Shown here piece after piece: positions 2,480-27,645 of a stretch of DNA of 64,000 nt. Each line of letters starts with the position of its first letter. Within the stretch, counting starts at the first letter, position 1. A program made the translations under genes and the position numbers. The notes beneath the pieces were generated by a model, which saw only the letters and a list, made by a program, of their open reading frames with translations, was not told the DNA's origin and ran no database searches. The stretch is from Agrococcus terreus (GTDB taxonomy: Bacteria > Actinomycetota > Actinomycetes > Actinomycetales > Microbacteriaceae), in contig NZ_BMLM01000001.1 in the NCBI RefSeq assembly GCF_014645235.1, positions 1,116,001-1,180,000 on the forward strand. The letters run 5' to 3'.

Positions 2480-4138
<1,659 letters not shown>

Positions 4139-4141
4139 GGC

Positions 4142-5044
4142 TCAGCCCGCGCGGCCCGACGGCGCGTCGTCCCCCTCGCGGGGCGGCGCGCCGTCGTCGT
4201 GCCGGTCGTCGGCCGCGGCGCCCTGGTCGACGTGCTCGTCGCCGCGCTCCCGGAACCGTCGGAACCCGCCCGCGAGCCCCTCGCGCTCGATCGCCCGCGC
4301 CTCCGTGATGCGCTGGCCGAGGCTCGGCCGCACCTCCTTGATGCGCGGGGCGAGCTCGGGGCCGAACGACAGCGGCGCGGGGCCGAACGCCTCGCGAGCG
4401 GCCTTGACGACCTGTCGGCCGAGGATGTTGTTGCCGACGCCGCCGATGGCCGCGCCGATGCCGAACGGCAGCGCGCGCCCGAGCATCGACGTGCCGGTGT
4501 TGCGCGCCATCCGGCGCAGGAAGGCGCGCCGCAGGAAGTCGACCACCTGCCCCATCGAGCCGGTGGGGAGCCGGCTCGTGATGAGCTCGCCCCAGAAGGC
4601 CTGGCCGGCCTGGCCGCGGCCGATCGTCTGCTGGGCGACGCGGCGCACGAGCGCCTTGCCGCCGGAGCCGAGCATGAGGCCCATGACGAGCGCCTTCGCG
4701 CGCTCGGGGTCGTCGACGTGGATGCCGTGCACCTCGGTGACGGCCTGCGCGAAGAACGCGCTCGCCTCGAGGAATCCGATCGTCTCGACGGCGGTGAGGC
4801 CGAGGGCGGCGGCGGTGCCGATGCCGGGCACGACGGCGGTGGCGCCGACGGCGGCGCCGCCGGCCGAGACGGCCGCGACGTACTGGCGCTCGAGGCGCTG
4901 CACCACTTGCTCGGGGGTGAGCTCGGGGTGCTTGCGGCGCAGCTCGCGCAGGTGGTTCACGACGAGCGGTCGCTGGGCGTCGATGACGCGGTCGAGCGTG
5001 CGCATGAGCCAGCCGAGGTCGTCGTCGCGCTGGATGTCGGCCAT
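4142..5044 (-). CDS. Conserved hypothetical protein with hydrophobic Gly/Ala core
   Basis: A 300-residue protein I cannot assign. It has a basic helical N-terminus, then a hydrophobic AAVGATAVVPGIGTAAALGLTAVETI segment that could be one or two membrane-associated helices, a long basic central part rich in Arg (FLRRAFLRRMARNTG), a second small-residue hydrophobic patch (ALPFGIGAAIGGVGNNILG) and a polar, Asp-rich tail. The glycine-zipper-like pattern is somewhat reminiscent of the EcsC family, but I would not assign that without a profile search. GGAGGG sits at ideal distance before the ATG. It converges with the HtrA gene, with 3 bases between stops. Confidence 0.6.
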   Translation of the reverse strand: MADIQRDDDLGWLMRTLDRVIDAQRPLVVNHLRELRRKHPELTPEQVVQRLERQYVAAVSAGGAAVGATAVVPGIGTAAALGLTAVETIGFLEASAFFAQAVTEVHGIHVDDPERAKALVMGLMLGSGGKALVRRVAQQTIGRGQAGQAFWGELITSRLPTGSMGQVVDFLRRAFLRRMARNTGTSMLGRALPFGIGAAIGGVGNNILGRQVVKAAREAFGPAPLSFGPELAPRIKEVRPSLGQRITEARAIEREGLAGGFRRFRERGDEHVDQGAAADDRHDDGAPPREGDDAPSGRAG

Positions 5045-5147
5045 GGGTCCCTCCTCCGGGCGCGGCTCGCGCCGCGGCTCCCGATCATCGCCGATCCAGC
5101 CGGGGAGCGGGCTGAACGACCCGGCCGCCGCGTGGGATCATGGAGGC

Positions 5148-5426
5148 ATGACGGACACGACCGGACCCGGCACGATCGGCGGCGGCGGCAGCACCGACGT
5201 GCTCGACCGCGAGCTCGAGAAGCTCCTCAACGGCGAGCTCACGGACGAGGGCGACCACGACCGCTTCTCGCACTACGTGAAGAAGGAGAAGATCCTGCAG
5301 TCGGCGCTCTCGGGCAAGCCGGTGCGCGCCCTGTGCGGCAAGAAGTGGACGCCGGGGCGCGACCCCGAGAAGTTCCCCGTCTGCCCCACGTGCAAGGAGA
5401 TCTACGAGAAGCTCCGCGACGAGTAG
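5148..5426 (+). CDS. DUF3039 family protein (putative zinc-binding)
   Basis: A 92-residue actinobacterial protein of unknown function. After a disordered Gly-rich N-terminus it has ELEKLLNGELTDEGDHDRFSHYVKK, then CGKKWTPGRDPEKFPVCPTCKEIY, where three cysteines and the buried His suggest a small zinc site. The family is widely conserved next to nicotinate phosphoribosyltransferase, as here (converging at 5426/5442). That linkage is a genomic observation; no role in NAD metabolism has been shown to my knowledge. The start is the only in-frame ATG before the conserved region. Confidence 0.85.
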   Translation: MTDTTGPGTIGGGGSTDVLDRELEKLLNGELTDEGDHDRFSHYVKKEKILQSALSGKPVRALCGKKWTPGRDPEKFPVCPTCKEIYEKLRDE

Positions 5427-5441
5427 CCGCGGCGCGGCGCC

Positions 5442-6743
5442 TCAGCGGAAGCGCGTCGGCAGCACGGGCTCGCCGCGCGCCAGGCGGTGCGCGTCGCCCG
5501 GCAGCTCGGCCACGGAGGCGTCGTGGCGCTCGCGCGCCGTCGCGACGCCCTCGGCGCCCAGCCAGCGCTCGTCGACCTCGCCGCCGGCCACGAGCGGAAC
5601 CTGCAGCGCGCGGCCGGCGCGCGCGGCCTCCGCGAGCACGGCTTCGTCATCGGTGACGAGCACCGTCTCCTCGACGGCGACGCCGCCCTGCAGCGTGCGC
5701 ACCGCGACCTTCTCGCCCGGCTTCGACGCCTTGTCCTCGGAGTGCTTCGCCACGCCCACCCAGGCGCCGTCGTCGCCCCGGCGGGCGACGAGCTTGTAGA
5801 CCATGCCCGCGGCCGGCGCGCCGGAGCCCGTGACGAGGCTCGTGCCCACGCCGTACGCGTCGACCGGGCTCGCCTGGAGGCCCGCGATCGCGTGCTCGTC
5901 GAGGTCGCTCGTCACGGTGATGCGCGTGCCGGTCGCGCCGAGCGAGTCGAGCAGGCGGCGCGCGTCGGCGGCCACCTCGACGAGGTCGCCGGAGTCGAGC
6001 CGGATGCCGCCGAGCCCGGTGCCCGCGACCTCGACGGCCGTGCGGATGCCCTGCTCGATGTCGTAGGTGTCGACGAGCAGCGTCGTGCCGACGCCGAGCG
6101 CATCGATCTGCGCCTGGAAGGCCTCGGCCTCCGAGTCGTGCAGGAGCGTGAACGAGTGGGCGGCGGTGCCCATGGTCGGGATGCCCCAGCGGCTGCCCGC
6201 GGCGAGGTTCGACGTGGCCGAGAAGCCGGCGATGTAGGCGGCGCGCGCGGCGGCGATCGCGGCCTCCTCGTTGGCCCGGCGCGAGCCCATCTCGGCCACC
6301 GGGCGGCCCTTCGCGGCGCGCGTCATGCGGGTCGCGGCGTTCGCGACCGCGGAGTCGTAGTTGAGCACCGAGAGCGCGAGCGTCTCGAGCACCACGGCCT
6401 CGGCGAACGAGCCCTCGACGACGAGCACGGGGGAGCCGGGGAAGTAGAGCTCGCCCTCGGCGTAGCCGCGGATGTCGCCCGAGAAGCGGTACTCCGCGAG
6501 CCAGTCGACGAGGTCGGCGGACGCCCACGGACGGATGCTCGCGAGCTCGGCGTCGCCGAAGCGGAACTCGGCGAGGCGCTGCAGGAACCGACCGGTGCCG
6601 GCGACGACGCCGTACCGGCGGGCGCCGGGGAGGCGTCGGGCGAAGACCTCGAAGACGGAGGGGCGGAACGCCGTGCCCGAGCGCATCGCTGCGTCGATCA
6701 TGGTGAGCTCGTAGCGGTCGGTCATGAGCGCGGTGTCGGTCAC
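5442..6743 (-). CDS. pncB: Nicotinate phosphoribosyltransferase
   Basis: A 433-residue NAD-salvage enzyme joining nicotinate and PRPP to give nicotinate mononucleotide with ATP. The family signature LMTDRYELTMIDAA is at the N-terminus. Downstream are MGSRRANEEAAI, GTAAHSFTLLHDSE, DTYDIEQGI, GIRLDSGDL and YGVGTSLVTG, all typical of the pncB active site and phosphate loop. The GTG at 6743 gives the standard actinobacterial N-terminus; TAGGCT ends 7 bases before it, so the transcript is probably leaderless. A far-upstream ATG at 6920 would run through the promoter and is not used here. Confidence 0.93.
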   Translation of the reverse strand: MTDTALMTDRYELTMIDAAMRSGTAFRPSVFEVFARRLPGARRYGVVAGTGRFLQRLAEFRFGDAELASIRPWASADLVDWLAEYRFSGDIRGYAEGELYFPGSPVLVVEGSFAEAVVLETLALSVLNYDSAVANAATRMTRAAKGRPVAEMGSRRANEEAAIAAARAAYIAGFSATSNLAAGSRWGIPTMGTAAHSFTLLHDSEAEAFQAQIDALGVGTTLLVDTYDIEQGIRTAVEVAGTGLGGIRLDSGDLVEVAADARRLLDSLGATGTRITVTSDLDEHAIAGLQASPVDAYGVGTSLVTGSGAPAAGMVYKLVARRGDDGAWVGVAKHSEDKASKPGEKVAVRTLQGGVAVEETVLVTDDEAVLAEAARAGRALQVPLVAGGEVDERWLGAEGVATARERHDASVAELPGDAHRLARGEPVLPTRFR

Positions 6744-17359: not shown

Positions 17360-17363
17360 CGGG

Positions 17364-17780
17364 CTAGGCGGCGCCGCGACGCCGCACGAGGCTCCAGGTG
17401 TTGCCGCCCGAGCGCTCGTGCGTGAACTCGTCGAGCGCCGCGACCGCCATCGCGAGCCCGCGGCCGGACTCCTCGAGCGGCGCCGCCATCTCGGCCTCGT
17501 CGAGGTCGACGCTCGCGGGCCTGGCGGTGTCGACGAACGACGCGGCGAGCCGCTCGGGCGCCACCTCGAGCCGCACCCGCACGCGCACGCTGCCGGGCGG
17601 CAGCCCGTGCTCGGCGATGTTCGTCGCGACCTCGCTCACGGCGAGCTGGAACAGCACGCGGTCGTCGGCGGCGACGTCGTCGGCCGCCTCGTAGAGCCGC
17701 TCGAGCGCGTCGAGCACCTGCTCGACGAGGCGCAGGTCGGCCGGACCCTCGAGGGTCGTGGCGTGCGCGTCAGTCGCCAT
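17364..17780 (-). CDS. Anti-sigma/serine-kinase-type ATP-binding protein (RsbW/HATPase_c_2)
   Basis: A 138-residue GHKL-fold protein. The N box is FQLAVSEVATNIAEHG (Glu and Asn for Mg-ATP), the middle has SFVDTARPA, and ESGRGLAMAVAALDEF is the G-box region; GGNTWSLVRR is the usual end. RsbW/SpoIIAB-like proteins phosphorylate a STAS partner on Ser and bind an output protein when the STAS partner is phosphorylated. It overlaps the STAS gene by 11 bases and is the last gene of the operon. No sigma factor gene lies nearby, so its output partner is unknown. Confidence 0.87.
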   Translation of the reverse strand: MATDAHATTLEGPADLRLVEQVLDALERLYEAADDVAADDRVLFQLAVSEVATNIAEHGLPPGSVRVRVRLEVAPERLAASFVDTARPASVDLDEAEMAAPLEESGRGLAMAVAALDEFTHERSGGNTWSLVRRRGAA

Positions 17781-18102
17781 CGAAGGCCGTCGCGGCCGAG
17801 TCGTGCGCGCGGAGCACGCGGTCGAGGTTCGTGAGGCGCAGGACCGTGCGCACGGCCTCCGGCACGGCCGCGATCCGCAGGTCGCCGCCGGCGAGCCGGG
17901 CGGCCTTGAGCGCCCCGATGAGCGCGCCGAGGCCCGAGGAGTCGACGAACTCGGTGCCGGCCATGTCGACGACGATGCGGGCAGTGCCGGCGTCGATCGA
18001 CTGCTGCACCGCCTGCCGCAGCTGCGGCGCGGCGACGGCCGTGAGGCGGCCCTCCGGCGCGATGGTCGCGATGCCGGATGCGGTGGTGACGGCGATGTTC
18101 AT
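17770..18102 (-). CDS. STAS-domain anti-sigma factor antagonist
   Basis: A 110-residue STAS domain of the SpoIIAA/RsbV type. GIATIAPEGRLTAVAAPQLRQAV is the usual N-terminal half and EFVDSSGLGALIGALKAAR contains the DSSGL motif whose serine is the phosphorylation site of the family; AVRTVLRLTNLDRVL closes the fold. It starts within the glycosyltransferase stop codon (ATGA), so synthase and switch protein are made in a coupled way. The phospho-state would be set by the neighbouring kinase and PP2C phosphatase. Confidence 0.92.
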   Translation of the reverse strand: MNIAVTTASGIATIAPEGRLTAVAAPQLRQAVQQSIDAGTARIVVDMAGTEFVDSSGLGALIGALKAARLAGGDLRIAAVPEAVRTVLRLTNLDRVLRAHDSAATAFDGD

Positions 18103-20072
18103 GCGGTTCCCTTCGACGGTTCGCGGTCGACGGCCTCCTGCGGGGGCTCCCCGCCGAAGCCGCGGTAGCGGGCGGCCTGGATGATGACGCTGAGCGCCAG
18201 CAGGTCGTAGGCGACCCAGACCGTGTTCACGAGCGTGCCCGTGCCGTCGGCCGTGCCGACGACGACGCGGCCGACGCCGATGATCAGGGCGAGCAGCAGC
18301 ATCCCGATCGCGGTGAGCTGCGGCCAGATCTCGCGCCAGGGCACGCGCCCCTCGGCGACCTTGTCCTTGCGGGTGACGACGAAGTCGAGCGGGGTGCGCA
18401 GCACGACGTTGGCGAACGACGTGACGCACGCCTTGATCCACACCGGGAACAGCGCGAGCGAGTACTGCTGGCCGCGCCACGTGCGGATGCCGCGCGCGAC
18501 GACGACGAAGAGCACCTGGTTGACGAGGAAGTACGGCAGGAAGCGCAGGAAGAAGTCGACCGACCAGGCCGTCACCGGCAGGATCCCGAGCACGAGGTAG
18601 ACGACGGGCGCGGCGAGGTACACGACGGCGGCGAAGCCCGACAGGTAGCTCCACATCGTGCCGAAGTACATGAGCCGCTGGCCCGCGCTCAGGCCGCGCT
18701 TGAGGAGCGGGTTGTCGCGCAGCAGCACCTGCATGGTGCCCTGCGCCCAGCGCAGGCGCTGCTTGAGCATCGTGCCGAGGTCGTCCGGGGCGAGGCCGTG
18801 CGCCAGCACCTCGTGGTGGTAGACGCTGCGCCAGCCGAGCGAGTGCAGCTGCATCGCCGTCGCCATGTCCTCGGTGACCGAGATGGTCGCGAGCGGCTGC
18901 AGCGGCTGCGCCTCGCCCGGGCGGTCCACGCGCAGCGCGTCGAGGAGGGCCGAGACGGCGTCGACGGCGCCCAGCGGCGACAGGTCGGAGGCGGCGAGCC
19001 GGGCGAGGGCCGCGTCGTCGATGACGACGACGCCCAGCTCGGCGTCGCGCTGGACCGGGAGGGCCTGCAGCTCGGCGAGGTCGTCGTGCATGCGCGCGAC
19101 GTCGAGCGCGACGAGCCGCTGCGAGGCGGCGTCGACCGCCTCGCGCACTCGGAAGGTCACGTCGGCGATGTGGCCGCCCTCGTCGATCTCCGACCGCGCG
19201 GCGCCCACCTCGGCGCGCAGGCGCGAGAGCTCGGCGCGCAGCTCCGGCTCGTTCGAGCGGCGGTGCGCCTCGCGGGCCAGCAGGCTCTCGGCGGCGCGGA
19301 GCGTGCGCCGCGTCGACGCCTCCACGTCGCGCACGTAGCCGACGATGCCGAGCTGCATGAGCGCATCCCGCCGCAGCACCGCGTTGGAGCCGCAGAAGAA
19401 CGCGGCGTTCCAGCCGTCCTTGCCCTGCTGGATGGGCCCGTAGAAGAGCGGCGCCTGGCTGCCGAGCGGGTCGGCCTCGTCGACGTTCGAGAACCACTGC
19501 GGCGTCTGCACGAGCGCCACCTGCGGGTCGTCGGCGAAGTAGCCGAGCGTGCGCTCGAGGATGAGCGGGTCCGGCACCTGGTCGGCGTCGAGGATGAGCA
19601 GGAACTCGCCGTCGGTCTGGAACAGCGCGTTGTTGAGGTTGCCGGCCTTCGCGTGGCGCGGCTTGCCGTCCCAGTCCGCCGAGCGGCGGATGTAGCCGAT
19701 CCCGGCGGCGCGCGCGGCGGCCTCCATCTCGGGTCGTGCGCCGTCGTCGAGGATCCACGTCTCGTGCGGGTAGGCGATGCGCTTCGCGGCGTGCGCGGTC
19801 GTCATGACGAGCTCGATCGGCTCGTTGTAGGTGGTGATGAAGACGTCGACGGTGCCCTGCGGCGGTGACGTCGGCCTCGGCCGCTGCTTGGCCCTCCACA
19901 TCGTGGTGGCGAACAGGATGGTGTCGATGAGGCTGTAGGTCTCGGCGATGACGAGCGGCACCGCGATCCACCACGCCGACCAGTTCACCGACTCCAGCCA
20001 CCGCCAGGCGACGTAGTTGACGCCCAGCAGCACCGAGAGGGTGGCGAGGATGCGGATGACGAGCAGCCGCAT
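18099..20072 (-). CDS. Cellulose-synthase-like processive glycosyltransferase (GT2) with internal insertion
   Basis: A 657-residue membrane synthase. Two N-terminal helices precede the GT2 domain: DVFITTYNEP (~76), WILDDGARPE (~106), LILDADQVPD (~159), VQTPQWF (~188), SVTEDMAT (~398) and LKQRLRWAQG (~436). D,D,D,QxxRW are complete, so activity is expected. At least six C-terminal helices form the channel part. No PilZ domain is evident, so c-di-GMP control through PilZ is unlikely. About 150 residues (244-396) rich in Ala/Arg/Glu with coiled-coil character separate FFCGSNAVLRRDAL from TED; in BcsA these motifs are nearly adjacent. The start overlaps the PP2C stop (TGATG). Confidence 0.9.
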   Translation of the reverse strand: MRLLVIRILATLSVLLGVNYVAWRWLESVNWSAWWIAVPLVIAETYSLIDTILFATTMWRAKQRPRPTSPPQGTVDVFITTYNEPIELVMTTAHAAKRIAYPHETWILDDGARPEMEAAARAAGIGYIRRSADWDGKPRHAKAGNLNNALFQTDGEFLLILDADQVPDPLILERTLGYFADDPQVALVQTPQWFSNVDEADPLGSQAPLFYGPIQQGKDGWNAAFFCGSNAVLRRDALMQLGIVGYVRDVEASTRRTLRAAESLLAREAHRRSNEPELRAELSRLRAEVGAARSEIDEGGHIADVTFRVREAVDAASQRLVALDVARMHDDLAELQALPVQRDAELGVVVIDDAALARLAASDLSPLGAVDAVSALLDALRVDRPGEAQPLQPLATISVTEDMATAMQLHSLGWRSVYHHEVLAHGLAPDDLGTMLKQRLRWAQGTMQVLLRDNPLLKRGLSAGQRLMYFGTMWSYLSGFAAVVYLAAPVVYLVLGILPVTAWSVDFFLRFLPYFLVNQVLFVVVARGIRTWRGQQYSLALFPVWIKACVTSFANVVLRTPLDFVVTRKDKVAEGRVPWREIWPQLTAIGMLLLALIIGVGRVVVGTADGTGTLVNTVWVAYDLLALSVIIQAARYRGFGGEPPQEAVDREPSKGTA

Positions 20073-21220
20073 CAGGCGCTCCTCCGCACGACGACGACGG
20101 TCACGTCGTCGGGCGCGCGGCGCTCGCGGGCGAGCCGCACCGCCTCCTCGACGGCGCCCTGCGGGCCGTGCTCGGCGAGCGTGCGGCTCACGTGCTCGAA
20201 CGGCCGCTCCGCGTCGAGGATGTCGAGCAGCCCGTCGCTGCAGCACAGCAGCGCGTCGCCCGGCTCGAGCGCGACGCTCGCGGAGCGGCGGTCCTCGCCG
20301 AGCCCCATCCCGAGCGGGAGGCCCGTGGATCGCAGCCGCTCCCAGGATCCGTCGGCGCGCAGCGCGAAGGCGAGGCTGTGGCCGGCGTCGACGAACTCCA
20401 GCTCGCCCGTCTCGAGCCGCAGCGAGGAGTGGAAGGCGGTGACGAAGACGTTCGCCTCGGACAGGCTCTCCTCGAGCAGCCGGTCGACCTCGGCGACGGA
20501 GCTCGCGAGGTCGCGGTGCGGGGCGGTGCGCAGCGAGGCGCGCACCGAGGCCGCGATGATCGCGGGGCCGGTGCCCTTGCCCATGACGTCGGCGACGGTG
20601 ACGCGCAGGTCGTCCTCGTGGGCGACGATGTCCCAGAAGTCGCCGGAGATGGCGCCCGCCGCGGCCGAGGCGCCGGCGAGCTCGTAGCCCGGGGCCTCCG
20701 GGAGGCGCTGCGGCGCGAGCGCGCGCTGCACGAGGAGCGCGCCGTCGAGCTCGCGCGAGCGGGCGAGCTCGAGCTGCACCCAGCCGGCGAGCTCCTGGAG
20801 CAGCGCGACCTGGCGCTCGTCGAGCTCGCGCGGCTCGGTGTCGAGGATGCAGAGCGTGCCCACGTGCTCGCCGCCCGGCGCCTCGAGGGGGTGGCCGGCG
20901 TAGAAGCGGAGGTGCGGGTCGCCCTGCACCCAGGGGCTGTCGGCCCAGGCGGGATCGGCCGCCGCGTCGGGCACGACGTTCGTGGCGCCGAGCCGCGCGG
21001 TCGCGTCGCAGAACGAGCCAGCGCGCGGCGCCTCGCGCCCGCCGAGGCCGATCTCGGACTTCCGCCACTGGCGGTCGTGGTCGAGCAGCGTCACGCTCAC
21101 CATCGGCACGCGGAAGAGCTCCTGCGCGAGCCGCGTGATGCGGTCGACCCGCTCGTCGGTCGGCGTGTCCACCACATCGAGCTCGTCGAGCGCCCGTTGG
21201 CGCCGTGGCTCGTCAATCAT
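20072..21220 (-). CDS. GAF-PP2C (SpoIIE-type) serine phosphatase
   Basis: A 382-residue phosphatase. Residues ~10-150 form a GAF domain (RITRLAQELFRVPMVSVTLLDHDRQW, FCDATARLG, GTLCILDTEPRELDERQ), which usually senses a ligand or redox state. Residues ~165-380 are the PP2C domain, with SGDFWD, VADVMGKGTGPAIIAA, CCSDGLLDILD and APDDVTVVVV, so both metal-binding aspartates are present. It should dephosphorylate the STAS protein of this operon (inference from family). GGGGGC lies 5-10 bases before the ATG at 21220; the longer reading to 21400 adds non-conserved sequence. Confidence 0.9.
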   Translation of the reverse strand: MIDEPRRQRALDELDVVDTPTDERVDRITRLAQELFRVPMVSVTLLDHDRQWRKSEIGLGGREAPRAGSFCDATARLGATNVVPDAAADPAWADSPWVQGDPHLRFYAGHPLEAPGGEHVGTLCILDTEPRELDERQVALLQELAGWVQLELARSRELDGALLVQRALAPQRLPEAPGYELAGASAAAGAISGDFWDIVAHEDDLRVTVADVMGKGTGPAIIAASVRASLRTAPHRDLASSVAEVDRLLEESLSEANVFVTAFHSSLRLETGELEFVDAGHSLAFALRADGSWERLRSTGLPLGMGLGEDRRSASVALEPGDALLCCSDGLLDILDAERPFEHVSRTLAEHGPQGAVEEAVRLARERRAPDDVTVVVVRRSA

Positions 21221-21386
21221 CGAACTGCCCCCTCGTGACTGGTCGGCATCCCGGCTCCGGCCTCGGTGGAGCCTCCCTCCAGCACATCGTGCACCATCCG
21301 CATCCTTGCGGGCCAGGGATCGGCGGCCGACGGCCTGCCAGGACGCTGATCGCCCACGCCCAGGAACGGGTGGTTGCGTGGGTGAC

Positions 21387-22091
21387 ATGACCGAACCCAT
21401 CCGCGCCGTCTACGTCAACGGCACGCTCACCCCCTCGCCCGGCGAGAGCCACACCGACCTGCTCATCGAGGCGAGCGCCGACATCCTGCGTCAGCAGGGC
21501 GTCGAGGTCGAGGTGATCCGTGCCGTCGACCACGACATCGCGCCGGGCGTGCAGCCCGACATGACCGAGCACGGCATCGCGACCGATGCGTGGCCGCAGC
21601 TGTGGGAGCGCATCTCGAGGGCCGACATCCTCGTGCTCGCGACGCCGATCTGGCTCGGCAACCTCTCGTCGGTCACGCGCCGCGTCATCGAGCGGCTCTA
21701 CGCGCAGTCGGGCGACCTCAACGACAAGGGGCAGTCGAGCACCTACGGCAAGGTCGCCGGCCTGCTCGTGGGCGGCAACGAGGACGGCATGAAGCACGTG
21801 GCTGCCGAGACCCTCTACGCGCTCGGCCACATCGGCTACACGATCCCGCCGCAGGCCGACGCCGGCTGGGTGGGGGAGGCCGGCCCCGGCCCGTCGTACG
21901 GCGACGAGCTCGACGACGGCTCCATCGCGGGCGCCGACAACGACTTCACGAAGCGCAACATCACGATCATGGCGTGGAACCTGCTGCACCTCGCGCGCAT
22001 GCTGCAGGGCGGCATCCCCAACGAGGGCAACGACCGCAACGCGTGGGAGCGCGGCGAGCGCTTCGGCTTCCACAACCCCGAGTACCGCTGA
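21387..22091 (+). CDS. Flavodoxin-fold NAD(P)H:FMN reductase-like protein
   Basis: A 234-residue protein of the NADPH-dependent FMN reductase superfamily. It begins IRAVYVNGTLTPSPGESHTDLLIEA (flavin phosphate loop), then ADILVLATPIWLGNLSSVTRRVIERL, the typical P-x-W/Y-N flavin strand, and GKVAGLLVGGNEDGMKHVAAETLYALGHIGYTIPP. The C-terminal part WERGERFGFHNPEYR is longer than in plain flavodoxins. Probably an electron-transfer or quinone reductase; the substrate is not apparent. Divergent from the phosphatase operon and followed at 76 bases by the hydrolase gene. Confidence 0.83.
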   Translation: MTEPIRAVYVNGTLTPSPGESHTDLLIEASADILRQQGVEVEVIRAVDHDIAPGVQPDMTEHGIATDAWPQLWERISRADILVLATPIWLGNLSSVTRRVIERLYAQSGDLNDKGQSSTYGKVAGLLVGGNEDGMKHVAAETLYALGHIGYTIPPQADAGWVGEAGPGPSYGDELDDGSIAGADNDFTKRNITIMAWNLLHLARMLQGGIPNEGNDRNAWERGERFGFHNPEYR

Positions 22092-24228: not shown

Positions 24229-24363
24229 CAGGGGGTGCCGGAGCTCCGCGCCGACGCGCTCCCGCGAGACCTGATCGAGGATCGGGAAGGCGGATCGCTC
24301 CGCGATGCACCCGTGCCGCGTCCGCCTCCGCCCGGAGGTCAGGGGCAGCCGCCGGACGACCGC

Positions 24364-24372
24364 TGTGGACAA
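24364..24372 (+). promoter_or_regulatory. DnaA-box-like nonamer TGTGGACAA
   Basis: The nonamer is the exact reverse complement of TTGTCCACA, the actinobacterial DnaA box consensus, and lies 41 bases before the tadA start. A single copy in 64 kb may be chance. The rest of 24229-24412 shows no gene and no convincing promoter. Confidence 0.3.
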
Positions 24373-24412
24373 CTTCCGCCGCCCGCCGCGGCCCCGCGCT
24401 TCACTGGCTCGC

Positions 24413-25645
24413 ATGCGCCAGGCCGTCGCCGAGATCACCGCCACCGTGCGGGCGAAGGTGCGTCGCGACGGCGTCGATCTCGCCGGCTCCGGCGATCTCG
24501 CCGAGCGCTACGTGCGCGACGCCGTGCGCTCCTACGCCGAGCGCTCGCTCGGCGGCAGCGTGCCGATGCTCGCCGACGAGCGCGAAGCCGAGCGCGACGT
24601 GCTGGCGGCCGTCCGCGGCTACGGACCGCTCCAGCCGTTCCTCGACGATCCCGAGGTCGAGGAGCTCTGGATCAACCAGGGCTCGCTCGTCTTCGCGGCT
24701 CGCGCCGGCGTGAGCGAGCAGCTGCCGCTGCGGCTCACCGAGACCGAGGTGCGCGACCTCGTCGAGCGCATGCTCTCGACCACCGGCCGCCGCGTCGACC
24801 TCTCGACGCCGTTCGTCGACGCCTCCCTGCCCGACGGGTCGCGCCTGCATGTCGCCTCCGGCGACGTCGCTCGCGGGGCGATGAGCATCAACATCCGCAA
24901 GTTCGCGCGCCGCCTCGCGTCGCTGTCGGCGCTCGTCGAGCGCGGGGCGCTCAGCCAGCAGGCCGCGCAGTTCCTGCGCCAGGCTGTCGTCGCCGGTTGC
25001 AACATCCTCGTCTCGGGCCCCACGCACGCGGGCAAGACCACCCTCCTGAACGCGCTGCTCGGCGCCGTCCGGCCGGGGGAGCGGGTGGTCACGGTCGAGG
25101 AGACGTTCGAGCTCGACCCGCCCGTCGACGACATCGTCGGCCTCCAGTGCCGGCAGCCGAGCCTCGAGGGCACGGGCGAGATCACGCTCCGCAGGCTCGT
25201 CAAGGAGTCGCTCCGGATGCGCCCGGACCGGCTGGTCGTCGGCGAGGTGCGCGAGGCCGAGGCGCTCGACCTGCTCATCGCCCTCAACTCGGGGGTGAGC
25301 GGCATGTGCTCCATCCACGCGAACTCCGCCCGCGACGCGCTCTCGAAGCTCACGACGCTGCCGCTGCTCGCGGGCCGCAACATCGACGCCGGCTTCGTGC
25401 TGCCGACGGTGGCGCAGTGCGTCGACCTCGTCGCGCACCTCGCGATCGACGCCCGCGGCAACCGCCAGGTCGTCGAGATCCTCGCGCCCACCGGCCACGT
25501 CCAGGGCACCGTCATCGAGGGCTCGACGCTCTTCGCGCTCCGCGGCGGCCTGCTCGAGCCGACCGGCTCGCATCCTGCGCGGCTCGAGAAGTTCGCCGCC
25601 GTCGGCGCCGACCCGACCGCGCTCCTCGCACGGGGCGCCGCATGA
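24413..25645 (+). CDS. tadA: Tad/Flp pilus assembly ATPase TadA (CpaF family)
   Basis: A 410-residue secretion ATPase powering Flp pilus assembly. The N-terminal domain has RGYGPLQPFLDDPEVEELWINQ; Walker A is SGPTHAGKTT (~201), the Asp/Glu boxes lie in VVTVEETFEL, Walker B is MRPDRLVVGEVREAEALDLL and the His box is MCSIHANSARDAL. All catalytic elements are intact. It is first in a run of seven same-strand genes. An upstream ATG at 24305 would add 36 non-conserved residues and is not preferred. Confidence 0.92.
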   Translation: MRQAVAEITATVRAKVRRDGVDLAGSGDLAERYVRDAVRSYAERSLGGSVPMLADEREAERDVLAAVRGYGPLQPFLDDPEVEELWINQGSLVFAARAGVSEQLPLRLTETEVRDLVERMLSTTGRRVDLSTPFVDASLPDGSRLHVASGDVARGAMSINIRKFARRLASLSALVERGALSQQAAQFLRQAVVAGCNILVSGPTHAGKTTLLNALLGAVRPGERVVTVEETFELDPPVDDIVGLQCRQPSLEGTGEITLRRLVKESLRMRPDRLVVGEVREAEALDLLIALNSGVSGMCSIHANSARDALSKLTTLPLLAGRNIDAGFVLPTVAQCVDLVAHLAIDARGNRQVVEILAPTGHVQGTVIEGSTLFALRGGLLEPTGSHPARLEKFAAVGADPTALLARGAA

Positions 25646-25658
25646 GGGGCGGCACGGC

Positions 25659-26513
25659 ATGACCTGGCTGCTCGGCGCCGCGCTCGGCCTCGGCCTCGTG
25701 CTCGCGGCGAGCCCGTGGCTGTCGCCGCGCCGGGAGAGGCGGGCGGATCCGCGCCGCAGCCGGGTGGTCGACCGTCTCACGCAGGCGGGCCTCGACGGCA
25801 TCCCGCCGCTCGCCGTCGGCGCTGCGTCGCTGCTGCTCGGCGTGCTCGCCGCCGGCGTCGCCCTCGCGCTCGCGCCGGTGGTCGCGATCGCCGCCGCCGC
25901 GTTCGCCGCTGGCGCCCTCGCGCCGCCGCTCGCGGTGCGCTGGCGGGCGCGTCGGCGCCGTCGCGCGCAGGCCGCGGTCTGGCCCGACGTGGTCGACCAC
26001 CTGGTCTCTGCCGTGCGGTCGGGGCTCGCGCTGCCCGATGCCGTCGCGCAGCTGCAGGACGCCGGGCCCGAGCTCACGCGTTCGGCCTTCGCCGCGTACG
26101 CGGCCGACCACCGCGCGACCGGCTCGTTCGCATACGCGCTCGACCGCCTCAAGGACCGCCTCGCCGATCCCGTCGCGGACCGCATCCTGGAGACGCTGCG
26201 GATGGCCCGCGACGTCGGCGGCAGCGAGGTCACGACCGTGCTGCGCGATCTCGCCGCGTACCTCCGCGTCGACCTCGCGACCCGCAGCGAGCTCGAGGCG
26301 CGCCAGACGTGGGTCGTGAACGCCGCCCGGCTCGGCGTCGCGGCGCCGTGGGTGGTGCTCCTCATCCTGTCGACGCGGCCGGAGGCGGCGCAGGCGTACA
26401 ACGCGCCCGGCGGCATCGCGCTCATCGCTGGCGGTGCCGTCGTCACCCTCATCGCGTACCGCGCGATGCTGCGGATCGGCGCGCTCCCGACCGAGGCGCG
26501 GTGGTTCGCGTGA
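25659..26513 (+). CDS. tadB: TadB-like inner-membrane platform protein (T2SSF domain)
   Basis: A 284-residue membrane protein. Two N-terminal helices (LLGAALGLGLVLAAS; the Ala/Leu-rich stretch around 50-85) precede the cytoplasmic T2SSF domain WPDVVDHLVSAVRSGLALPDAVAQLQ ... LRMARDVGGSEVTTVLRDLAAYLRVD. Two more helices follow (APWVVLLILST, IALIAGGAVVTLIAY). It forms the platform on which TadA works. It begins 14 bases after tadA and its TGA overlaps the GTG of tadC. Confidence 0.9.
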   Translation: MTWLLGAALGLGLVLAASPWLSPRRERRADPRRSRVVDRLTQAGLDGIPPLAVGAASLLLGVLAAGVALALAPVVAIAAAAFAAGALAPPLAVRWRARRRRRAQAAVWPDVVDHLVSAVRSGLALPDAVAQLQDAGPELTRSAFAAYAADHRATGSFAYALDRLKDRLADPVADRILETLRMARDVGGSEVTTVLRDLAAYLRVDLATRSELEARQTWVVNAARLGVAAPWVVLLILSTRPEAAQAYNAPGGIALIAGGAVVTLIAYRAMLRIGALPTEARWFA

Positions 26514-27445
26514 GCGCCGAGCTGGGCTGGAGCCTCGTGCTCGGCGCGAGCCTGGGCATGGGCCTCTGGATGCTCGTGAGCCTGGTCCCGATCCTGCGCC
26601 GCCCGCTGCTGCTGCACCGGGTCGCGCCCTACGTGCTCGACGTCTCGGCCGGCGCCCGCGACCTCGTCGCCCGCCGCCGGGTCGACCCGGCGCGGGTGCT
26701 CGGCGTCGTCGCCTCGCCCGTCGGCGACCGGCTCGCGCCGCTCGTCCACGCCGTGCTCGGCGCGCCCGACACCATCCGCCGACGGCTGCGCCAGGCCGCG
26801 TCCGACGAGACGCCCGAGGAGGTGCGCGGCCGGCAGCTGCGATGGGGCGTGCTGGGCGCGGTCGTCGGCACGGCGCTCGGCGTCGTCGGCGCGGTCCAGG
26901 GCGGCCACGCCGCGCTGCCCGCCGCGCTCGGGCTCCTGGGCGCAGCGATCGGCGCCCTCGCGGTCGATCACCTGCTGCAGCGCGCCGCGAAGCGCCGCCT
27001 CTCGCGCATCTCGAGCGAGCTGCCGTCGATCCTCGAGTTCCTGTCGCTGAGCCTCGCGGCGGGCGAGGGCCTGCAGGATGCGCTGCGGCGCGTCGGCGGC
27101 GCGGGCTCCAGCGCCCTCGGGCGCGAGCTGGGCGGCGTCGTCGCCGACGCTGCTGCCGGCACGAGCCTGTCGAGCGCGCTCGCGTCGCTCGCGACCGAGC
27201 TCGACCACCCGGGCGTCGCCCGCAGCGTCGACCAGATGCGCGGCGCCCTCGAGCGGGGCACCCCGCTCGCCCAGACGCTGCAGGCGCAGGCCCTCGACGC
27301 CCGCGACGCCGCGAAGCGCGACCTGCTCGAAGCGGCAGGTCGCAAGGAGATCTCGATGCTCGTGCCGCTCGTCTTCGGCCTCCTGCCGACGACGGTGGCG
27401 TTCGCGCTGTGGCCGGGCATCCACGTGCTCCAGGTCGGATTCTGA
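26510..27445 (+). CDS. tadC: TadC-like inner-membrane platform protein (T2SSF domain)
   Basis: A 311-residue partner of TadB. N-terminal and central helices are followed by the T2SSF signature ELPSILEFLSLSLAAGEGLQDALRRVG ... GTSLSSALASLATELDHPGVARSVDQMRGALERGTPLAQTLQAQ and a C-terminal helix with ISMLVPLVFGLLPTTVAFALWPG. The GTG start overlaps the tadB stop (GTGA). The downstream pilin gene follows with its own strong AAGGAGG site. Confidence 0.9.
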   Translation: MSAELGWSLVLGASLGMGLWMLVSLVPILRRPLLLHRVAPYVLDVSAGARDLVARRRVDPARVLGVVASPVGDRLAPLVHAVLGAPDTIRRRLRQAASDETPEEVRGRQLRWGVLGAVVGTALGVVGAVQGGHAALPAALGLLGAAIGALAVDHLLQRAAKRRLSRISSELPSILEFLSLSLAAGEGLQDALRRVGGAGSSALGRELGGVVADAAAGTSLSSALASLATELDHPGVARSVDQMRGALERGTPLAQTLQAQALDARDAAKRDLLEAAGRKEISMLVPLVFGLLPTTVAFALWPGIHVLQVGF

Positions 27446-27456
27446 AGGAGGAAGCC

Positions 27457-27645
27457 ATGTCCACGATCAGCAGGAGGTTCCAGCGGCTCGTCGGCCGGAT
27501 GGTCGACGAGGAGCGCGGCGACGTGCCCGGCTGGGTGCTCGTCACGCTCATGACCGCGGGGCTCGTCATCGTGCTCTGGACGGTCGCCGGGCCCGCGCTC
27601 ACGGGCGTGTTCGAGCAGGCGATCGCGCGCGTCTCGAGCTTCTGA
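27457..27645 (+). CDS. Small single-helix protein, putative Flp-type pilin of the Tad locus
   Basis: A 62-residue protein: basic N-terminus, EERGDVPGW, then one hydrophobic helix (VLVTLMTAGLVIVLWTVAGPAL) and a short amphipathic tail. Size, position between TadC and TadE, and an unusually strong AAGGAGG ribosome site suggest the abundant subunit. A classical G/E prepilin-peptidase site is not clear, though ERGDVPGW resembles the conserved pre-helix segment of actinobacterial Tad pilins. Its TGA overlaps the next ATG. Confidence 0.7.
   Translation: MSTISRRFQRLVGRMVDEERGDVPGWVLVTLMTAGLVIVLWTVAGPALTGVFEQAIARVSSF

Follow-up and report, generated by a model that had tools for sequence, protein, structure and literature searches.

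The window, the 64,000-nucleotide stretch of Agrococcus terreus DNA analysed here, carries four genes on the minus strand at positions 17364–21220, with the coordinates and motifs that a first-pass annotation had given them. In order, they encode a 382 aa phosphatase (P0004; 20072–21220) with a GAF domain at residues 22–150 and a SpoIIE-type PP2C domain at residues 202–380, a 657 aa BcsA-like processive GT2 synthase (P0003; 18099–20072), a 110 aa stand-alone STAS protein (P0001; 17770–18102) and a 138 aa RsbW/SpoIIAB-like serine kinase (P0002; 17364–17780). Each gene overlaps the next: the phosphatase and GT2 genes share 1 base (TGATG), the GT2 and STAS genes 4 bases (ATGA), and the STAS and kinase genes 11 bases.

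All four proteins scored above the Pfam cut-offs. The phosphatase matched GAF at 54.5 bits and SpoIIE (PF07228) at 122.7 bits (cut-off 25), the synthase Cellulose_synt at 72.4 bits and Glycos_transf_2 at 67.6 bits, the STAS protein its own family at 68.4 bits, and the kinase HATPase_c_2 at 49.7 bits (cut-off 27.4). No Pfam match to GGDEF was found in any of the four. The SGDFWD motif of the phosphatase, the DSSGL of the STAS protein and the HATPase N box of the kinase are all intact, as previously noted. All components of an RsbU/V/W-type module are present, namely a Ser-bearing STAS protein, a GHKL kinase with an N box and a GRG box, and a SpoIIE/RsbU-type PP2C.

The phosphatase matched 6k4e, which is named 'Putative serine phosphatase' (E 2e-6), and the STAS protein had profile matches to SpoIIAA entries. 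The STAS protein also scored 72.1 bits (cut-off 53.45) with TIGR00377, the anti-sigma antagonist superfamily. Its predicted phosphorylation site is Ser55 of the DSSGL motif (codon at 17938–17940), which we take to be the phospho-site by analogy with SpoIIAA/RsbV. The kinase carries E50...N54 (N box) and ESGRG, and residues E50, N54, E104 and G106–G108 are invariant in 28/28 aligned kinases. A profile of the kinase family (A1) matched RsbW 6m36 at 2.5e-8 as well as SpoIIAB entries, whereas a phmmer search of the PDB with the single RsbW-like protein returned nothing at E ≤0.001. Among the NCBIfam equivalogs for anti-sigma-B RsbW, the window kinase matched only RsbA_anti_sig, at 27 bits and under the cut-off of 210, while 6/28 of its relatives touch PRK04069 and 3/28 touch TIGR01924 at E ≤0.001. 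The GAF half of the phosphatase (20072–21220) matched 4zmu, a chain named diguanylate cyclase, at E 2e-35. A GAF ligand could be the input signal for the phosphatase.

BcsA is switched by c-di-GMP via its PilZ domain. The window synthase shares the BcsA-type core motifs (DD, DxD, TED and QxxRW, here DDG, DAD, TED and QRLRW), but PilZ gave no Pfam match in it (E ≤0.001), and a helical insertion precedes its TED motif. With TIGR03030, the UDP-forming cellulose synthase model, it scored 366.1 bits, below the curated cut-off of 699.1. The alignment with BcsA halts at GT2 residue 244 and restarts at 394, with no BcsA chain residues between. This gap and the helices predicted at 235–271, 276–297 and 302–336 define an insertion of approximately 150 residues (residues 245–393; 18894–19340, minus strand), in and around which most of 338–364 and 383–400 was predicted with low confidence.

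The remainder of the host genome (2.83 Mb in 8 contigs, 99.95% complete) was searched for further members of these families. At E ≤0.001, PF07228 matched a single place, the operon phosphatase. PF13581 matched 12 places, of which the operon kinase was the best; of the other 11, the seven best-scoring were read, and each proved to be a long protein (412–635 residues) resembling histidine kinases. The kinase-family profile at E ≤1e-9 found only the operon. PF01740 matched the operon STAS protein and two proteins that, on reading their sequences, we named a SulP-like transporter and a glutaminase-like protein. Sigma-70 region 2 matched 12 places, and the 11 that were read (L018 has no called gene) comprise one SigA-like protein and ten ECF-like proteins, the latter 153–429 residues long. 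With the SigB/F/G sigma model (cut-off 234.35), the sole match was the RpoD frame, which scored 130.8 bits. The absence of a sigma factor that the first-pass annotation had remarked on therefore holds for the operon, and genome-wide for the SigB/F/G class only. A classical sigma partner of the switch was not found in the host genome, and the GT2 is the only candidate output visible there. By eye, an operon resembling those for Flp/Tad pilus assembly (an ATPase and two TadB/TadC-like proteins) was also seen in the window, at 24305–27645.

Gene order and co-occurrence across genomes

Two sets of loci were compared. A family sample of 299 genomes contained the full GT2 in 51, at 53 loci (the window included), with two copies in two genomes. 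The named set consists of the best 80 of 582 relatives from a scan of public genomes, and at least five records are common to both sets. Absences from whole genomes are at first-look sensitivity, the candidates scored per genome being 3 for the GT2 phylum-wide, 4 for the GT2 in the family, 13 for RsbW and 15 for STAS.

STAS and RsbW genes lie directly downstream of the GT2 gene at 40 of the 53 family loci. STAS alone is found at six, RsbW alone at four and neither at three, one of which is reordered (L070) while the other two encode GT2-STAS fusions (L103 and L104). The first-pass annotation had proposed looking for the gene order in other actinobacteria, and GT2-STAS-RsbW is kept at 63 of the named loci (best 80 of 582 relatives). 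The remaining 17, three of which are interrupted by a contig end, have RsbW only (10, all Curtobacterium, one at a contig end), STAS only (one) or neither (four, all Arthrobacter, and two ended by the contig). A PP2C match was present in the fetched stretch at 62 of the 63 named loci with the full order; at 53 it was on the same strand and no more than 2 kb upstream. The cassette genes in relatives often share short overlaps. As a control, 20 other BcsA-like GT2 loci from the family were examined, and none had STAS or RsbW within the fetched 9.3–10.5 kb; a PP2C-like match was found in two. The recurrence of GT2-STAS-RsbW against 0/20 control loci indicates that the arrangement is more than chance.

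Co-conservation of the kinase with the GT2, another check that had been suggested, is strong. RsbW was found in 45/51 GT2 genomes and in 23/248 other family genomes, which corresponds to an odds ratio of 73 (Fisher table 45/6/23/225); as relatedness is ignored, the p-value is not relied on. STAS of this kind is present in 51/51 family GT2 genomes, in 50 by profile at E ≤1e-9 and in G186 by the fused domain. Where STAS is missing beside the GT2, it is usually found elsewhere. This is so for all four family genomes with RsbW alone downstream. Of the 14 named exceptions, 13 were searched genome-wide (L226 was left out) and STAS was found in 12, the sole miss being a 2.5 Mb MAG. It lies away from the queried GT2 locus in 11 of the 12, and the best match in G692 is its own locus. 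G690 and G691, both Arthrobacter genomes, carry a PP2C-STAS-RsbW set at another place.

Among the matches listed, the named loci belong to Microbacterium, Leucobacter, Tessaracoccus, Nocardioides, Cellulomonas, Gordonia, Mycolicibacterium and other genera. A phylum-wide search for the GT2 at E ≤1e-100 found it in 2/396 genomes, its own included. The GT2 is thus sparse across the phylum, yet present in many actinobacterial genera. In the window, the genes that flank the operon bound the interval 17360–21389. At 11/11 loci from congeners, the same flanking genes (dehydrogenase-like and flavodoxin-like) are close together with no GT2 match between them, and approximately 0.5–1 kb of other DNA separates them at four of the 11. 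The GT2, RsbW, STAS and a full SpoIIE domain are absent from 5/5 congeners in the family sample. We infer that the four genes were probably gained or lost as a unit.

Several variants of the locus were also seen. In Nesterenkonia haasae (L165), the GT2 match has an in-frame stop after 232 residues, and STAS and RsbW matches come next. RsbW-PP2C fusions of approximately 535–543 residues adjoin a STAS gene in L072, L101, L140, L146 and L162. A group of secreted-looking proteins (score over 100) is encoded beside the GT2 at 27/80 named loci (best 80 of 582) and 27/53 family loci; the window's own locus encodes no protein of this group. An example of one kind, of approximately 840 residues (L190:8688–11312), matches OpgC_C, and an example of another (L105:5039–6397) matches GH26. 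These matches are a hint, which suggests that the GT2 polymer may be acylated or trimmed in loci with such neighbours.

STAS proteins in genomes where the kinase was not found

RsbW was not found at E ≤1e-9 in six GT2 genomes, those of L102–L106 and G198. A full SpoIIE domain was not found in the same six; five have weak, partial matches over the last approximately 90 positions of the model (two of these, in G222 and G173, attain the cut-off), while in G198 there was no match. In all six, STAS is beside or fused to the GT2, and the phospho-serine has gone in five. The GT2 proteins of L103 and L104 (796 and 791 residues) end in a STAS domain in which VTPAG replaces DSSGL, and the fused domain of L103 scored 26.4 bits with Pfam STAS (cut-off 22.6). 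In L102, L105 and L106, a separate STAS adjoining the GT2 has VTASG or VTAAG, with Ala at the phospho-site. G198 retains DSSGL, and a ribosomal protein gene was read by eye after its STAS gene. Over both sets (the named set being the best 80 of 582 relatives), the phospho-serine is kept in 107/110 STAS matches beside the GT2, comprising 106 from the motif tally and L100, which has DSSGLR. The five losses of the phospho-site come from two genera, and perhaps represent one or two events.

Comparison of L103 with L104 gave dN/dS values of 0.146 for the fused STAS, 0.107 for the GT2 part and 0.49 for the tail, and a dN of 0.42 for the linker, where synonymous sites are saturated. Purifying selection acts on the fused STAS, while the linker and tail drift. 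The separate STAS proteins that lack the Ser have dN/dS values of 0.29–0.42, compared with 0.15–0.24 for the adjoining GT2. A STAS domain that is constrained on the synthase where a kinase is not detectable is hard to explain if STAS acts solely as a kinase antagonist.

In alignment A3, a part of the GT2 insertion of approximately 40–45 residues is missing in L102, L103 and L106, all from genomes without RsbW, and was considered as a need for RsbW control. As Arthrobacter loci without RsbW beside the GT2 retain these residues, the idea was dropped.

The synthase as candidate output

We read the operon as a unit, complete in itself, for the post-translational control of a polysaccharide synthase, in which STAS would be a direct partner of the GT2, made switchable by the kinase and the phosphatase, and we give this reading a probability of roughly 0.6. 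The first-pass annotation had likewise proposed the synthase as the target, and the comparative evidence supports it, through co-conservation, gene order, loss and the STAS-GT2 fusion. The RsbW-like kinase would phosphorylate Ser55 and so keep STAS off the synthase. The GAF-PP2C phosphatase, once activated, would dephosphorylate STAS, which could then bind the GT2 on its cytoplasmic side, with the helical insertion as the most likely site, and permit polymerisation. STAS would thereby fill the role that PilZ and c-di-GMP play for BcsA. Where a lineage has neither kinase nor phosphatase, STAS would be a fixed partner, as the product of an adjacent gene or as a fused domain, mostly without the phospho-site. 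That unphosphorylated STAS turns synthesis on, and does not inhibit it, is suggested by analogy with SiaC and SiaD (see below) and by the fact that most kinase-less lineages have lost the phospho-site. STAS-GT2 did not stand out in an analysis of inter-protein covariation, in which the positive control, STAS-RsbW, was also without a clear signal.

The output could also be the GT2 without STAS ever touching it. The RsbW-like protein would then be the one bound to the synthase, holding it until dephosphorylated STAS draws RsbW away. SpoIIAB and RsbW act on sigma factors in this hold-and-release order, and at 10 named Curtobacterium loci (best 80 of 582) and four family loci, with one record common, it is RsbW and not STAS that follows the GT2, with a 4-base overlap. 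However, the 6/51 GT2 genomes in which RsbW was not found retain STAS beside or fused to the GT2, and the fused STAS in RsbW-less genomes is under purifying selection. We consider this arrangement unlikely.

Direct partnership of STAS with the GT2 need not be the whole function of these proteins. STAS and RsbW of the same family occur without the GT2 in 23/299 family genomes, in varied places, which rules out a strict two-partner system in which the switch always accompanies the GT2. In a tree of 71 STAS-RsbW pairs, the 41 beside a GT2 and the 30 that are not (some from GT2 genomes) are intermingled. GT2 linkage changes 14 times on this tree, with gain and loss not told apart; at least seven changes are forced by well-supported branches, and the mean for shuffled linkage is approximately 23. 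As STAS-RsbW pairs exist without the GT2 and their linkage has changed repeatedly, the switch in this group probably drives more than a single output. The higher frequency of SigB-like factors in GT2 genomes (see below) also counts against the GT2 as an exclusive output.

STAS-RsbW genes not beside a GT2, often with a PP2C gene, were seen in L123–L150, L161, L162, L274 and L275. Several such GT2-less sets sit between helicase-like and succinyl-CoA ligase genes, where relatives have the GT2 too. In L128, a UmuD/UmuC-like pair (4124–5825) was recognised by eye after the STAS-RsbW genes. Four of the 23 GT2-less genomes (L157–L160) have a distant STAS-PP2C-RsbW set by sugar-transferase and flippase-like genes, followed by a second STAS in L159 and L160. 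This is possibly a second polysaccharide-linked partner switch.

The occurrence of STAS-RsbW without the GT2 is also consistent with a triad that controls transcription, via a sigma factor or another regulator, and a GT2 that is merely co-transcribed. The match of the STAS protein to the anti-sigma antagonist superfamily points the same way, as does the higher frequency of SigB-like factors in GT2 genomes (16/51 vs 19/248), where SigB-like means at least 190 bits with TIGR02980, a threshold of our own; the curated cut-off was passed in 2/299 genomes. But such a factor is lacking in 29/45 genomes with both GT2 and RsbW and is present in only 3/23 with RsbW and no GT2, and the host genome has no detected member of the SigB/F/G class. 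No sigma genes were recognised, by eye and by clustering, among the neighbours read around GT2-less STAS-RsbW genes. The existence of the STAS-GT2 fusion also argues against control of transcription, which we regard as quite improbable. More improbable again is a triad that acts on some other cytoplasmic target, such as a second-messenger enzyme, with effects on several processes that include the GT2, since although STAS-RsbW sets lie away from the GT2 and HsbA and BgrV act on diguanylate cyclases (PMC8457831), the GT2 has no PilZ match, the fusion places STAS on the synthase itself and the operon encodes no second-messenger enzyme.

Comparison with known partner switches

Partner switching is familiar chiefly as a way to free sigma factors, and a sigma factor is the output of both RsbU/RsbV/RsbW and SpoIIE/SpoIIAA/SpoIIAB. 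The operon shares with these two systems the same three protein families and the DSSGL site, but differs in that no member of the SigB/F/G class was found in its genome. In a few cases, partner switches act on diguanylate cyclases (PMC8457831). The same paper describes SiaABCD of Pseudomonas aeruginosa, in which unphosphorylated SiaC binds stalk helices in SiaD, an interaction that SiaB blocks by phosphorylating SiaC. In that system, the activity of an enzyme is governed by a phosphatase, a kinase and a STAS-like protein, and this last partner, when unphosphorylated, binds helices of the enzyme and activates it (PMC8457831). The enzyme is encoded together with the switch, as in the window operon. 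SiaABCD differs in having a diguanylate cyclase as its output and a DUF1987 protein, SiaC, as the partner; here, the candidate output is a membrane GT2, with a protein of the Pfam STAS family as its putative partner.

Other partner switches, with a connection to polysaccharide or biofilm, are described in the available portion of a review (PMC8256260), which calls the targets of the STAS proteins SypA (Vibrio fischeri) and HmpV (Nostoc punctiforme) unknown. They resemble the window operon in that link, but that portion describes no synthase-STAS unit for SypA/SypE or HmpUVW. In Anabaena all4160, likened here by its description in the same portion of the review alone, a STAS domain is joined to a glycosyltransferase in one protein, as in the GT2-STAS fusions, but is N-terminal.

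In the open-licence PMC literature, we found no report of a GT2 synthase on which a STAS/RsbW switch acts. More broadly, we are narrowly inclined to the view that across Actinomycetes a BcsA-type synthase came to take its direct allosteric input from a partner switch in place of c-di-GMP and PilZ. STAS would then be a standing subunit of the enzyme, phospho-switchable in genomes that encode the kinase and phosphatase and locked on where both have been lost, with the site lost and, in one genus, STAS fused to the synthase. As the four-gene cassette carries its own membrane enzyme, the target of STAS is directly testable. If the reading of the synthase as that target is true, it would show how a cellulose-synthase-like enzyme can run without c-di-GMP.
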